Shown here piece by piece: positions 24,837 through 50,629 of a DNA stretch of 64,000 nucleotides. The position numbers and the translations under genes are program-made. The notes beneath the pieces are model-generated. The model was not told the origin of the DNA, made no database searches, and was given only the letters and a program-made list of their open reading frames with translations. Origin of the DNA: Klenkia taihuensis (GTDB lineage Bacteria; Actinomycetota; Actinomycetes; Mycobacteriales; Geodermatophilaceae); NCBI RefSeq assembly GCF_900112525.1, contig NZ_FOMD01000005.1, positions 1-64,000 on the forward strand. The letters run 5' to 3'. Numbering within the stretch: position 1 is the stretch's first letter; every line of letters begins with the position of its first letter.

Positions 24837-24853
24837 TGTTCCGATCTGGAACA
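24837..24853. promoter_or_regulatory. TGTTCC-N5-GGAACA operator, catA site
   Basis: TGTTCC-GATCT-GGAACA has perfect 6-bp arms. It lies 100 bp before the catA start and 117 bp before the divergent enolase-family start. It is one of five related sites in the window. Confidence 0.65.
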
Positions 24854-24953
24854 ACCCGACTGCGCCGAGCGGGAGAACAGTGGCCCCCGACACACTGGCG
24901 GAGCCGTGCGGGCATCCAGACATGCACCGGTCCCGGGGAACAGGAGAGCACCC

Positions 24954-25856
24954 ATGACCACCACCGACGACGCCCGCGAGCAGGCGGCGGTCGACTTGAG
25001 CACCGGCCCGACGGCGCTCTCCCCCACCGCCGCGGACTCGGGCGCGTCGGCCAGCTCGTCCTTCCGCACGACCGGCCAGTACAGCGGCAGCGGGGCCGGC
25101 GCCGACACCGCGCGGGTCGACGCCCTCGCCCGGGCGCTTCTGGGGGCCGTGCACCAGGTCATCCGGGAGCACGAGGTCACCTACCCCGAGTTTCAGGCGG
25201 CCAAGAGGTGGCTCATGGACGTCGGGGAGGGTGGCGAGTGGCCCCTGTTCCTCGACGTCTTCGTCGAGCACGCCGTCGAGGAGGTGGCCGCCCGCACCCA
25301 GACCGGCACCGTGGGCACCATCCTCGGGCCCTACTACCTCCCCGACCAGGTGCAGCTCGCGTCCCCGGCCTCTCTTCCAGCTCGACCCGACCAGGCGGGC
25401 ACCCCGCTGCTGTTCCGGGGCCGGGTGACCGACACGGACGGTGCCGCCGTCCCGGGTGCGAAACTCGACATCTGGCAGGCCGACGAGCAGGGCTACTACT
25501 CCGGGTTCGCGCCGGGGATCCCCGCGGGGAACCTCCGCGCCGTCGTGAGCGCGGACGCCGAGGGCCGCTTCGAGATCAGCACCATCCAGCCTGCGCCCTA
25601 CCAGGTCCCCACCGACGGCCCTACCGGCGCACTGATCTCCGCGGCAGGCTGGCACCCGTGGCGTCCGGCGCATCTGCACCTGCTGGTGTCCGCACCGGGT
25701 CACCGCGCGGTGACCACGCAGCTGTACTTCGCCGGTGGTGAGTACCTGGACTCCGACGTCGCCGAGGCCACCAAGCCCGAGCTCATCCTGGACCCGGAGG
25801 ACGTCGGGGACGGTCGGCGCGAGGTCACGTACGACTTCGTGCTCGAGACGGCCTGA
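24954..25856 (+). CDS. catA: catechol 1,2-dioxygenase
   Basis: A 300-residue intradiol dioxygenase that cleaves catechol to cis,cis-muconate with O2 and non-haem Fe(III). The N-terminal helical domain spans about 50-115. Iron ligands are Tyr in LGPYYLP, Tyr in GYYSGF, and two histidines in [15 protein letters not shown] at 24954 with CAGGAG before it. A 45-residue Ser/Ala-rich leader precedes the conserved region. It is 11 bp before catC. Hydroxyquinol or a substituted catechol is possible as substrate. Confidence 0.88.
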
Positions 25857-25867
25857 CGGGGGCCCGG

Positions 25868-26191
25868 GTGTTGTTCCACGTCCGAATGGACGTCGCCATC
25901 CCCCGCGACCTCGACCCCGCTGAACGCGACCGGTTGGTGGCCAGGGAGAAGGCGCGGGCGCTGCAGCTGCAGGAGCACGGCATCTGGGTCCACCTGTGGC
26001 GGGTGGTCGGTGCGTACTCCAACATCTCGGTCTTCGACGTGCAGGACACCGGCGAGCTGCACGACCTGTTGTGGTCCCTGCCACTGTTCCCGTTCATGCG
26101 GGTGGAGGTCACCGCCCTCACCGAGCACCCCTCGACGCAGCGCGCCGGTCAGACCGTCGCGGAGCCGACGGTGAGACCTCCGCACACGTAG
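25868..26191 (+). CDS. catC: muconolactone delta-isomerase
   Basis: A 107-residue ferredoxin-like protein (LFHVRMDVAIPRDLDP at the start, GIWVHLWRVVGAYSNISVF in the middle, LPLFPFMRVEVTAL near the end) that converts muconolactone to beta-ketoadipate enol-lactone. GTG at 25868. It follows catA in an operon. Its last 43 bases overlap the 3' end of the convergent SDR gene. Confidence 0.88.
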   Translation: MLFHVRMDVAIPRDLDPAERDRLVAREKARALQLQEHGIWVHLWRVVGAYSNISVFDVQDTGELHDLLWSLPLFPFMRVEVTALTEHPSTQRAGQTVAEPTVRPPHT

Positions 26192-26853
26192 AGGACCTGG
26201 CCGGTCACGAAGCCGGCCTGGTCGGCCAGGAAGAAGTCGACCGCGTGCGCGACGTCCTCCGGGGTGCCCATCCGACGGACCGGGACCGCGTCGACGATGG
26301 CCCGGGTGGTCTGCTCGTCGTTGGCGGCCTCGAACAGCGGCGTGGCGATGGGGCCTGGGCCCACCGCGTTGACGGTCACCCCCGCGGGCCCCAGCTCGAG
26401 CGCCCAAACGCGGGTCAGGCCGAGCAACCCGGCCTTGGCCGCAGCGTAGGCAGTGCGCTCGGCCTTGCCGAGGGCGGCCCGGGAGGACATGTTGACCACC
26501 CGACCGAAGCCGGCCGCCCGCATGCCGGGCAGCACGGCCTGCGTGCACTGGACGGCGCACCGCAGGTTCAGCGCGAAGGAGCTGTCCACCTGGTCGAGTG
26601 CCTGGTCCTCCAACCGAGCGGGGAAGACGGCACCCACGTTGTTCACCAGCCGGGTGACCGGCCCGTCGTCGAGGACCTCGGCCAGCGCGTCCGCGGCCGA
26701 GGCCGGGTCGGCGAGGTCGGCGAGCACGGTGCGCACCGCGTCCGCGGGCTGGCGGTCGAGCACCACGACGTCCCACCCGTGGGCGAGCCCCGCGTCGACC
26801 ACGGCGCGGCCGATCCCCGAGGCGCCCCCGGTCACCAGCAGTCGTGCATCCAT
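26149..26853 (-). CDS. short-chain dehydrogenase/reductase
   Basis: A 234-residue classical SDR: TGGASGIG at residue 8, NNVGAV in place of NNAG, SSRAAL, and YAAAK as catalytic Tyr/Lys. VVVLDRQ suggests NAD(H). ATG at 26853. It lies 9 bp downstream of the cyclase gene in the same operon, so the pair may act on one intermediate. Its 3' end overlaps catC on the other strand. Confidence 0.82.
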   Translation of the reverse strand: MDARLLVTGGASGIGRAVVDAGLAHGWDVVVLDRQPADAVRTVLADLADPASAADALAEVLDDGPVTRLVNNVGAVFPARLEDQALDQVDSSFALNLRCAVQCTQAVLPGMRAAGFGRVVNMSSRAALGKAERTAYAAAKAGLLGLTRVWALELGPAGVTVNAVGPGPIATPLFEAANDEQTTRAIVDAVPVRRMGTPEDVAHAVDFFLADQAGFVTGQVLYVCGGLTVGSATV

Positions 26854-26862
26854 GACAGCTCC

Positions 26863-49279: not shown

Positions 49280-49323
49280 GGGCTCGAGCTCTCTGGGCGA
49301 GGGGGACGTGGCGCGGAGCGGCG

Positions 49324-49364
49324 CGGTGAGCGGGACGGCAGGGTCGCTGCCGTCCCGCTCACCG
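49324..49364 (-). terminator. hairpin between binding-protein and ATPase genes
   Basis: An 18-bp perfect stem (CGGTGAGCGGGACGGCAG) with a 5-nt loop lies 3 bp after the binding-protein stop. Such hairpins usually protect or partially terminate the message so that the binding protein is made in excess. Confidence 0.8.
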
Positions 49365-49367
49365 GGC

Positions 49368-50510
49368 TCAGTTCAGTTCAGCGAAGGTCTTGTCCCACAC
49401 CCGGAGCGTGTCGATGTTCGCGGCGGTGACCTGCGGGTTCATCATGAAGGTCTCCCGGTACGGGGCCTCGACGGTGAGCTCGGGGGTGGTCTCGTCGACC
49501 GGCAGGGTGTAGTCGCCGTCCTGGGTCTCACCGGTCGCCAGGTACTGGGCGGCGGTGCGGACGACGAGCTGGCCCTCGATGACCGGGGACTGCAGCACGG
49601 CCGAGTAGATCTTCCCGGAGCGCAGGTTCGTCAGGTCACCCGACGAGGTGCCGGTGATGACGGTGACGTCGACACCGGGCTGCAGGCCGTTCTGCTCCAG
49701 CGCCTGCACCACGCCGTTGGCGACGTCGTTGCTGTGCGCGTAGATGAAGTCGATCCCCTGGTCGAGGTACTGCGGGATGACCTGGCTCGCCGCGGCGAAC
49801 CCGCCCTGGGCGTCCACCGTCGGGGTGGGCTCGACCGCGAGCACGTTGAACGCGTCGCCGGTCTCCTCGGCGAAGGCCGACTCGCGGTCGTCGCCGGCCG
49901 CGTAACCCTCGGTGAACCGGATCTCGAGCAGGTTGGGCTTCCCGTCCGGCCCGTTGTAGGTCTTCCCGGCTGCCTCGGCCTCCTGCAGTGCGGCCAGGGC
50001 GTTGTCACCGGCTTCGATGCCGATGCCGGTGTCGCTCACCCCGGCGTAGGCGGCCACGAAGTCCTCGGCGTCGGGCTGGATGGCCTGGTTCCACTGGATC
50101 ACCGGGGCAACCCGGGAGAGCTGGCGGATGGAGTTGGTCGCTGCAGCTGCAGAAGCCGGCCAGAACAGGAATGCCGCCGCCTCCTGGCCGCTGGCCAGGA
50201 ATTCCTGGACCTGCTGGTCCTGCTCGGTCTGGTCGAAGTCGTTCTCCACGATCTGGACCTCGTAGCCGAGGTCCTCGCCCTGGGCCGTCAGGGACTCGGC
50301 CGCGGCCTTGAGGTACACGTTCGAGGTCGAGGGCATGAAGACCTGCAGGAGGGCACCGTCCCCCTCCAGGGTGCCGCTGCCCGAGACCTCCGCGGCCGAG
50401 CTGTTGCTGGACCCGGAGCCCGACGAGCAGGCCGCCAAGCTCCCGGCGAGGACGACACCGGCGGCCAGTGCGGCCAGTGCCTTCCATCGCGACGTCGTTG
50501 TCGAGGACAC
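49368..50510 (-). CDS. ribose-type ABC substrate-binding lipoprotein
   Basis: A 380-residue binding protein. The leader WKALAALAAGVVLAGSLAAC ends in a lipobox, followed by a Ser/Gly linker. The two-lobed fold of cluster B proteins is recognisable (MPSTSNVYLKAAAESLTAQG at the start, GIDFIYAHSNDVANGVVQAL near 270). GTG at 50510 with GGGAG 8 bp upstream. First gene of the importer operon. A TGTTCC-type site lies 103 bp before the start, so uptake may be co-induced with the monooxygenase pathway. Confidence 0.87.
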   Translation of the reverse strand: MSSTTTSRWKALAALAAGVVLAGSLAACSSGSGSSNSSAAEVSGSGTLEGDGALLQVFMPSTSNVYLKAAAESLTAQGEDLGYEVQIVENDFDQTEQDQQVQEFLASGQEAAAFLFWPASAAAATNSIRQLSRVAPVIQWNQAIQPDAEDFVAAYAGVSDTGIGIEAGDNALAALQEAEAAGKTYNGPDGKPNLLEIRFTEGYAAGDDRESAFAEETGDAFNVLAVEPTPTVDAQGGFAAASQVIPQYLDQGIDFIYAHSNDVANGVVQALEQNGLQPGVDVTVITGTSSGDLTNLRSGKIYSAVLQSPVIEGQLVVRTAAQYLATGETQDGDYTLPVDETTPELTVEAPYRETFMMNPQVTAANIDTLRVWDKTFAELN

Positions 50511-50612
50511 GGTTGATCTCCCGGTGCAGGTGAAGAGGGGTGCCGGGGGCCTTCGAGCGGCCTTGCCGGCGGGTGTGAGCTGCATCATGAAGAGCGCCCG
50601 GCAGGGCGACCC

Positions 50613-50629
50613 TGTACCGATCTGGAACA
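50613..50629. promoter_or_regulatory. TGTTCC-N5-GGAACA-type operator, importer/dodecin site
   Basis: TGTACC-GATCT-GGAACA: one arm mismatch, and the spacer is identical to the catA site. It is 103 bp before the leftward binding-protein start and 77 bp before the rightward dodecin start. Confidence 0.6.

Follow-up and report, generated by a model that had tools for sequence, protein, structure and literature searches.

Palindromic sites and their neighbouring genes

The window analyzed here, a 64-kb stretch of Klenkia taihuensis DNA (positions 1 to 64,000 of contig NZ_FOMD01000005.1; the term denotes the whole stretch), contains five copies of the palindrome TGTTCC-N5-GGAACA, together with a plus-strand gene (31473-33308) that encodes their proposed cognate regulator. 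The regulator combines a GAF domain, a degenerate AAA module with its lid and a Fis-type helix-turn-helix. The palindrome was searched with tolerance for mismatches, both in the window and in the whole 4.317-Mb genome, and all five sites, the predicted operators, were located in promoter-sized gaps.

The first site (TGTTCC-GATCT-GGAACA, 24837-24853) has perfect arms and lies 100 bp before catA (24954-25856, plus strand), the gene of a catechol 1,2-dioxygenase (TIGR02438, 404.6 bits against a cut-off of 404.4), which is followed by catC (25868-26191). It also faces the divergent gene of an enolase-superfamily protein (MR_MLE; 23581-24720, minus strand), a possible target whose start, placed by eye at about 24720, is 116 bp away. 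Two sites share the gap between the genes of a flavin reductase (34568-35068, minus strand) and a luciferase-like monooxygenase (35301-36464, plus strand). The one at 35166-35182 (TGTTCC-GATCC-GGCACA, one mismatch) is 97 bp before the reductase and 118 bp before the monooxygenase, and the one at 35210-35226 (TGTTCC-ACATC-GGAACA, perfect arms) is 74 bp before the monooxygenase. The fourth site (CGTTCC-GATTC-GGAACA, 43095-43111, one mismatch) precedes by 74 bp the gene of a mycofactocin-coupled short-chain dehydrogenase/reductase (SDR; TIGR03971; 42178-43020, minus strand). The fifth (TGTACC-GATCT-GGAACA, 50613-50629, one mismatch) lies 76 bp before a dodecin gene (50706-50912, plus strand) and 102 bp before the gene of the binding protein (Peripla_BP_4) of an ATP-binding cassette importer, which also comprises an ATPase and a permease (46770-50510, minus strand).

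The preliminary description of this DNA had listed the same five sites, and their coordinates, mismatches and spacers were reproduced without change. It had also divided the distances to the starts into classes of about 75 and about 100 bp. With starts chosen by their ribosome-binding sites (those of the flavin reductase and the SDR being read by eye), the shorter class comprises 74 bp (monooxygenase, ATG 35301), 74 bp (SDR, ATG 43020) and 76 bp (dodecin, GTG 50706), and the longer class 97 bp (flavin reductase, GTG 35068), 100 bp (catA, ATG 24954) and 102 bp (binding protein, GTG 50510), so both classes were retained.

Distribution in the genome and conservation in a same-genus genome

At up to two mismatches the window contains exactly these five sites, compared with 1.28 +/- 1.00 in shuffled sequences (n = 100), none of which reached five. 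In the whole genome, seven places were found at up to one mismatch, five of them being the window sites, while the reversed-pattern control gave one. The motif is thus not scattered through the genome: the concentration of five of the seven places within 25.8 kb has a binomial p of 2e-10, and the remaining two places (C10) have spacers outside the R-N-W-N-Y pattern described below. A genome scan with relaxed arms (YGTNCCRNWNYGGNACR) returned nine places, five of them already known, against ten for the reversed control, and yielded no reliable new member of the regulon.

The sites were then compared with those of G082, a same-genus genome whose assembly is 73% complete. One of its contigs preserves the gene order of the window from the monooxygenase gene to those of the binding protein and dodecin, the three proteins being 96%, 90% and 66% identical, respectively. 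As the preliminary description would require, the motif is conserved upstream of the orthologous genes: four sites occur within the same three gaps, namely the pair before the monooxygenase (both with the same arms as in the window), the site before the SDR (identical) and the site between the binding-protein and dodecin genes, which reads TGTGCC-GATGT-GGAACA in the same place as 50613. In total, 47 of 48 arm positions are identical between the two genomes, versus 316 of 467 for the remaining gap positions (Fisher p 6e-7).

The regulator and the sites beside its relatives

The C-terminal Fis domain of the 31473 protein (HTH_8, PF02954) was matched at 3.6e-16 over residues 567-606, and the AAA module by AAA_lid_14 (8.1e-12) and a Walker-A-like GGPGTGKL. 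A sigma-54 interaction domain was not among its matches at E<=1e-5. Relatives were sought in 112 genomes of the family and in a sample of 397 genomes of the order (cut at E 1e-70), and 13 were found at 253 bits or more, five in the family search and eight in the order search; below these, the family search gave 213 bits for its next best match. The class-wide search (394 genomes, same cut) found nothing beyond the genome itself. Both the order and the class searches scored the best three candidates per genome, a scheme by which relatives may be missed, as was the regulator of G128 described below. A scan of genome contigs with the regulator gave 15 loci, all distant. In a quick tree, the 14 proteins (the window regulator and its 13 relatives) were placed on one side of a branch (SH-aLRT 100) from 34 lower-scoring homologues, taken here as the outgroup; two long rows within the group were flagged as unsure in their place. 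The helix LGIGR[TN]TLYRK, present as LGIGRTTLYRK in the window regulator, occurs in all 14 group proteins and, with S allowed at the variable position, in two of the 34 outgroup proteins (L036 and L131), and none of the 14 contains a GAFTGA-like motif.

The palindrome accompanies this group. A site with up to one mismatch was located within 1.5 kb of the regulator gene in 12 of the 13 relatives, i.e., at 12 of the 14 group loci, and the other two loci have one within 3 kb. In G308 a perfect site lies 2.9 kb from the regulator gene, upstream of a hydrolase gene that is followed on the same strand by the genes of a Baeyer-Villiger monooxygenase (BVMO) and the regulator, and in the window 1.9 kb separate the end of the regulator gene from the closest site (35166). 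Within 1.5 kb, no site occurs at any of the 34 outgroup loci, a few of which are shortened by contig ends. Around the relatives' regulators, 17 sites were counted in 61 kb, whereas 0.03 would be expected at the rate seen in 16 regulator-free genomes. Since the 13 loci were chosen by their Fis-type gene, the presence of that gene proves nothing; the presence of the palindrome does. On this evidence the 31473 protein, which had been named before as the best candidate for the regulator of a shared regulon, is very probably the regulator of the palindromes.

An alternative is that the palindrome is bound by the product of another regulator gene in or near the cluster, of the IclR, LysR or some other type, with the Fis-type gene as a bystander. 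Two LysR genes are indeed present in the window (27611 and 41208), and in G082 the binding-protein gene has an IclR gene in its vicinity (L079:16763-17848). The evidence makes this very unlikely. By BLAST, the window LysR proteins have a match near the regulator in one of the 13 relatives (G054), other regulator families not having been searched systematically there. Moreover, a search that ignored the regulator pointed the same way: among the 397 genomes, 56 had matches to the BVMO, and the loci of the best 30 were examined. Sites were present at 12 of these 30, ten in the known clusters and two in new ones. At one of the new loci, in G128 (BVMO identity 62%), the site is again accompanied by a Fis-type regulator gene, matched in two frames, with the helix LGIGRTTLYRK; this protein is outside the tree of 14. 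The other is a second copy of the G386 cluster, with a regulator and three sites. The remaining 18 of the best 30 loci (BVMO identity 47-58%) all lack a site; of two site-less genomes, G222 has a nearby Fis-type gene of about 30% identity and G246, represented by two short contigs, has none. The form of the site itself, as set out in the following section, also fits a Fis dimer.

Beyond the binding-protein and dodecin genes of G082, the IclR gene at L079:16763-17848 has no counterpart among the window open reading frames scanned there.

Structure of the site

The site comprises 17 bp, TGTTCC-RNWNY-GGAACA. The R-N-W-N-Y spacer was found in all 34 sites of the window, the G082 contig and the stretches of up to 20 kb around the 13 regulators, versus 8 of 64 sites elsewhere. 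This rule was formed on part of the same data and fixed before later sites came up; the ten sites first seen thereafter all fit, three of them from the second G386 copy, where two are identical to those of the first. Position -7 is always G and position +7 always C in the 34 sites, the centre is A or T, and most of the variation falls on the outer T and on the fourth letter. According to one account (PMC3711457), Fis sites follow a 15-bp motif, G-13bp-C, whose centre is rich in A/T and in which the outer guanines make the sole important base contact. The palindrome, framed by G(-7) and C(+7), matches that motif as it is given there.

The two outgroup proteins with the LGIGR[TNS]TLYRK helix (L036 and L131) have adjoining palindromes with TGTGCC arms, one arm in L131 reading TGTCCC. 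In addition, near-palindromes of the form TGT-N11-ACA, with other inner letters, were observed beside 8 of the 34 outgroup Fis-type regulators (L036:1451-1467, L131:3287-3303, L139:403-419 and L128:3269-3285, as well as in L030, L033, L025 and L026). By hand, 11 of 12 such elements were placed within 250 bp of the regulator gene. In the first 14 outgroup loci nine were counted, versus 1.5 in Markov-resampled sequence; the count failed to replicate in 20 further loci, which gave three, with TGT outside the six top-ranked triplets. It is possible, if rather doubtful, that TGT-N11-ACA palindromes adjacent to the regulator genes are the general recognition sites of GAF-Fis regulators in sigma-54-less bacteria. 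The recognition helix would then set the inner letters of the arm (TGT-T/G-CC for LGIGR[TNS]TLYRK, TGTCC for LGLARSTLYRK), and the present cluster would represent one regulator whose flavoprotein Baeyer-Villiger operon was replaced by one of luciferase type, with its DNA word kept. If true, sequence could reveal which operators many orphan regulators use.

Target genes of the relatives and of the window

In all 13 relatives, genes for an alpha/beta hydrolase and a BVMO are located by the regulator (59-100% identity to the hydrolase of G308 and 62-100% to the BVMO of G329, respectively), and a site lies upstream of the hydrolase gene, the BVMO gene or both. The sequence FxGxxxHxxxW[PD] is the fingerprint of type I BVMOs. 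It was found in 10 of the 11 BVMOs examined in the relatives and is absent in L117. Genes for a zinc-dependent alcohol dehydrogenase (ADH) and an aldehyde dehydrogenase are also present in six of the 13, and four genomes (G329, G386, G234 and G422) have a further site beside this pair. G386 has two copies (L179 and L114) of the cluster of regulator, hydrolase, BVMO, ADH and aldehyde dehydrogenase genes; the hydrolase and BVMO frames are broken in L114, as is the BVMO frame in G016.

The window contains neither a BVMO nor the hydrolase, the latter having been sought only in the window and the next 20 kb, and elsewhere in the genome the BVMO has only a partial match of 38%. In their place are the luciferase-like monooxygenase and the flavin reductase. 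A type II BVMO would pair a luciferase fold with a separate flavin reductase and turn ketones into lactones. The 35301 protein matches Bac_luciferase, and its structural matches include a diketocamphane monooxygenase (4uwm), two alkanal monooxygenases scoring higher. In PMC6352141, luciferases are placed together with diketocamphane monooxygenases as type II BVMOs. We infer that the monooxygenase and reductase of the window stand in for the flavoprotein Baeyer-Villiger enzyme.

The preliminary description had regarded the genes that share a site as a coherent set. The shared regulon is supported, but the common target of the relatives is the BVMO/hydrolase operon for the breakdown of ring ketones, which the window lacks, so its catechol and flavin mononucleotide composition looks derived. 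The tree points in the same direction: the window regulator groups with those of G095 and G308 (supports 95 and 97), both of which have the BVMO operon, and the gene set of the window is therefore most simply taken as derived. The window thus apparently represents a rewired regulon in which the old DNA word was kept. This suggests that the regulator retained its word when, among its targets, a two-component oxygenase of luciferase type took the place of the flavoprotein Baeyer-Villiger enzyme.

Proposed mode of action

Sequence comparisons make it highly probable that the palindromes serve the GAF-AAA-Fis regulator (gene at 31473-33308) as operators. Several observations weigh against this assignment. 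The window regulator gene has no upstream site, unlike those of most relatives, and its product shares only 36-52% identity with theirs. The catA site is known from one genome only, and the link to catA rests on that genome because the G082 contig ends before the region. The same contig begins shortly ahead of the monooxygenase sites and shows no regulator gene, and the best regulator homologue elsewhere in this 73%-complete assembly is a 30% paralogue. Finally, among genomes that lack the regulator, the count of one-mismatch places reaches 18 (G131), and single sites therefore prove nothing. This last count is also what would speak for chance palindromes in a GC-rich genome, an explanation of vanishing probability, contradicted by the clustering (p 2e-10), the conservation of the arms (p 6e-7), the constraint on the spacer and the association with the regulator group.

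As operators of the 31473 protein, the 17-bp sites would be read by a dimer of its C-terminal Fis helix-turn-helix, with one recognition helix per TGTTCC arm, and the GAF domain would be expected to sense a compound of the pathway. The sigma-54 DNA-binding domain (PF04552) had no match in the genome, the control being detected in 4 of 14 genomes, and given also the missing GAFTGA loop, the regulator is expected to act on sigma-70-type promoters. The protein would most likely be an activator, because the sites are well upstream of the starts. Binding, activation and ligand are all predictions. The same protein could instead bind its sites as a repressor that is released by a pathway compound. 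In many relatives the sites lie between the regulator gene and the divergent hydrolase gene, as is often the case with autorepressors. However, the distances from site to start are mostly 65-141 bp (one is 174 bp), the tandem sites 24-25 bp apart in G329, G386 (both copies), G234 and G422 suit an upstream activator, and the regulator family carries an AAA module, which together make repression unlikely.

Relation to known regulators

The system would be a new regulon of a known kind of regulator. The NtrC site is TGCACC-N5-GGTGCA; no paper containing that site was found. NtrC and Fis share with the window sites the 6-5-6 form of the palindrome, including G(-7) and C(+7), and the helix-turn-helix of the 31473 protein was weakly matched to the structures of Fis (E 0.016) and NtrC (1ntc, E 0.04). 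In contrast to NtrC, the arms in the window read TGTTCC, and no sigma-54 domain was found in the genome. MimR-type regulators of actinobacteria control monooxygenase operons. They resemble the present case in that a Fis-type regulator adjoins monooxygenase genes, although the class of the target enzyme differs. In the chn-type pathway for cyclic ketones, the regulator is the AraC-type ChnR. Its gene set is like that of six of the 13 relatives (BVMO, hydrolase, ADH and aldehyde dehydrogenase), but the relatives have a GAF-Fis regulator in place of the AraC type.

The closest parallels in architecture are DhaR and TyrR, the sigma-54-independent, GAFTGA-less NtrC-like proteins (PMC3162934), which have in common with the 31473 protein a sensor domain, an AAA remnant with lid, a Fis helix-turn-helix and the lack of GAFTGA. 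In the same source, actinobacteria are reported to be without sigma-54, and TyrR and DhaR to be sigma-70 dependent. DhaR is the best NCBIfam match of the 31473 protein, mainly in the C-terminal part (127.6 of 551 bits, far below the cut-off); for the GAF region, a structural match is 4lrx (DhaR, 8e-6). DhaR and TyrR nevertheless differ from the present system in their genes and in their operator. No paper was found that joins a TGTTCC/GGAACA inverted repeat to a regulator; few subscription papers were covered, and absence in print is not implied. A group of uncharacterized Fis-type regulators gains a concrete, testable operator and target set, and the site may help to detect operons for ring-ketone catabolism and may serve as a part of biosensors.

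Other observations in the window

The genome has a G+C content of 72%, and matches to mycofactocin and actinobacterial catechol dioxygenase families occur in the window, all of which point to an actinobacterium. Downstream of the monooxygenase gene are genes for a zinc-dependent ADH (ending at 37983) and a CoA-transferase III (38044-39255). The SDR gene, the second of the two LysR genes (41208-42107) and an aldehyde dehydrogenase gene (39798-41180, minus strand) form a probable operon, as judged from gene order and gaps. This aldehyde dehydrogenase is 61% identical to the G329 enzyme whose gene adjoins a site and the regulator.

The 54 bp or so before the monooxygenase ATG (35247-35300) are nearly identical in G082, more so than the rest of the gap. 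An RNA element that could fold over the ribosome-binding site was considered for this segment and rejected (z -0.82 versus shuffles, no match in Rfam). Two CRP-like sites, TGTGACTGTGCTCACC and TGTGACTAGCGTCGCA, are located at 35246-35261 and 31431-31446, just upstream of the genes of the monooxygenase and the Fis-type regulator, respectively. Since two were found in the window versus 1.06 expected, their positions alone are suggestive. A GTGTGA...TTAC-like element was also seen by eye upstream of several distant monooxygenase homologues.

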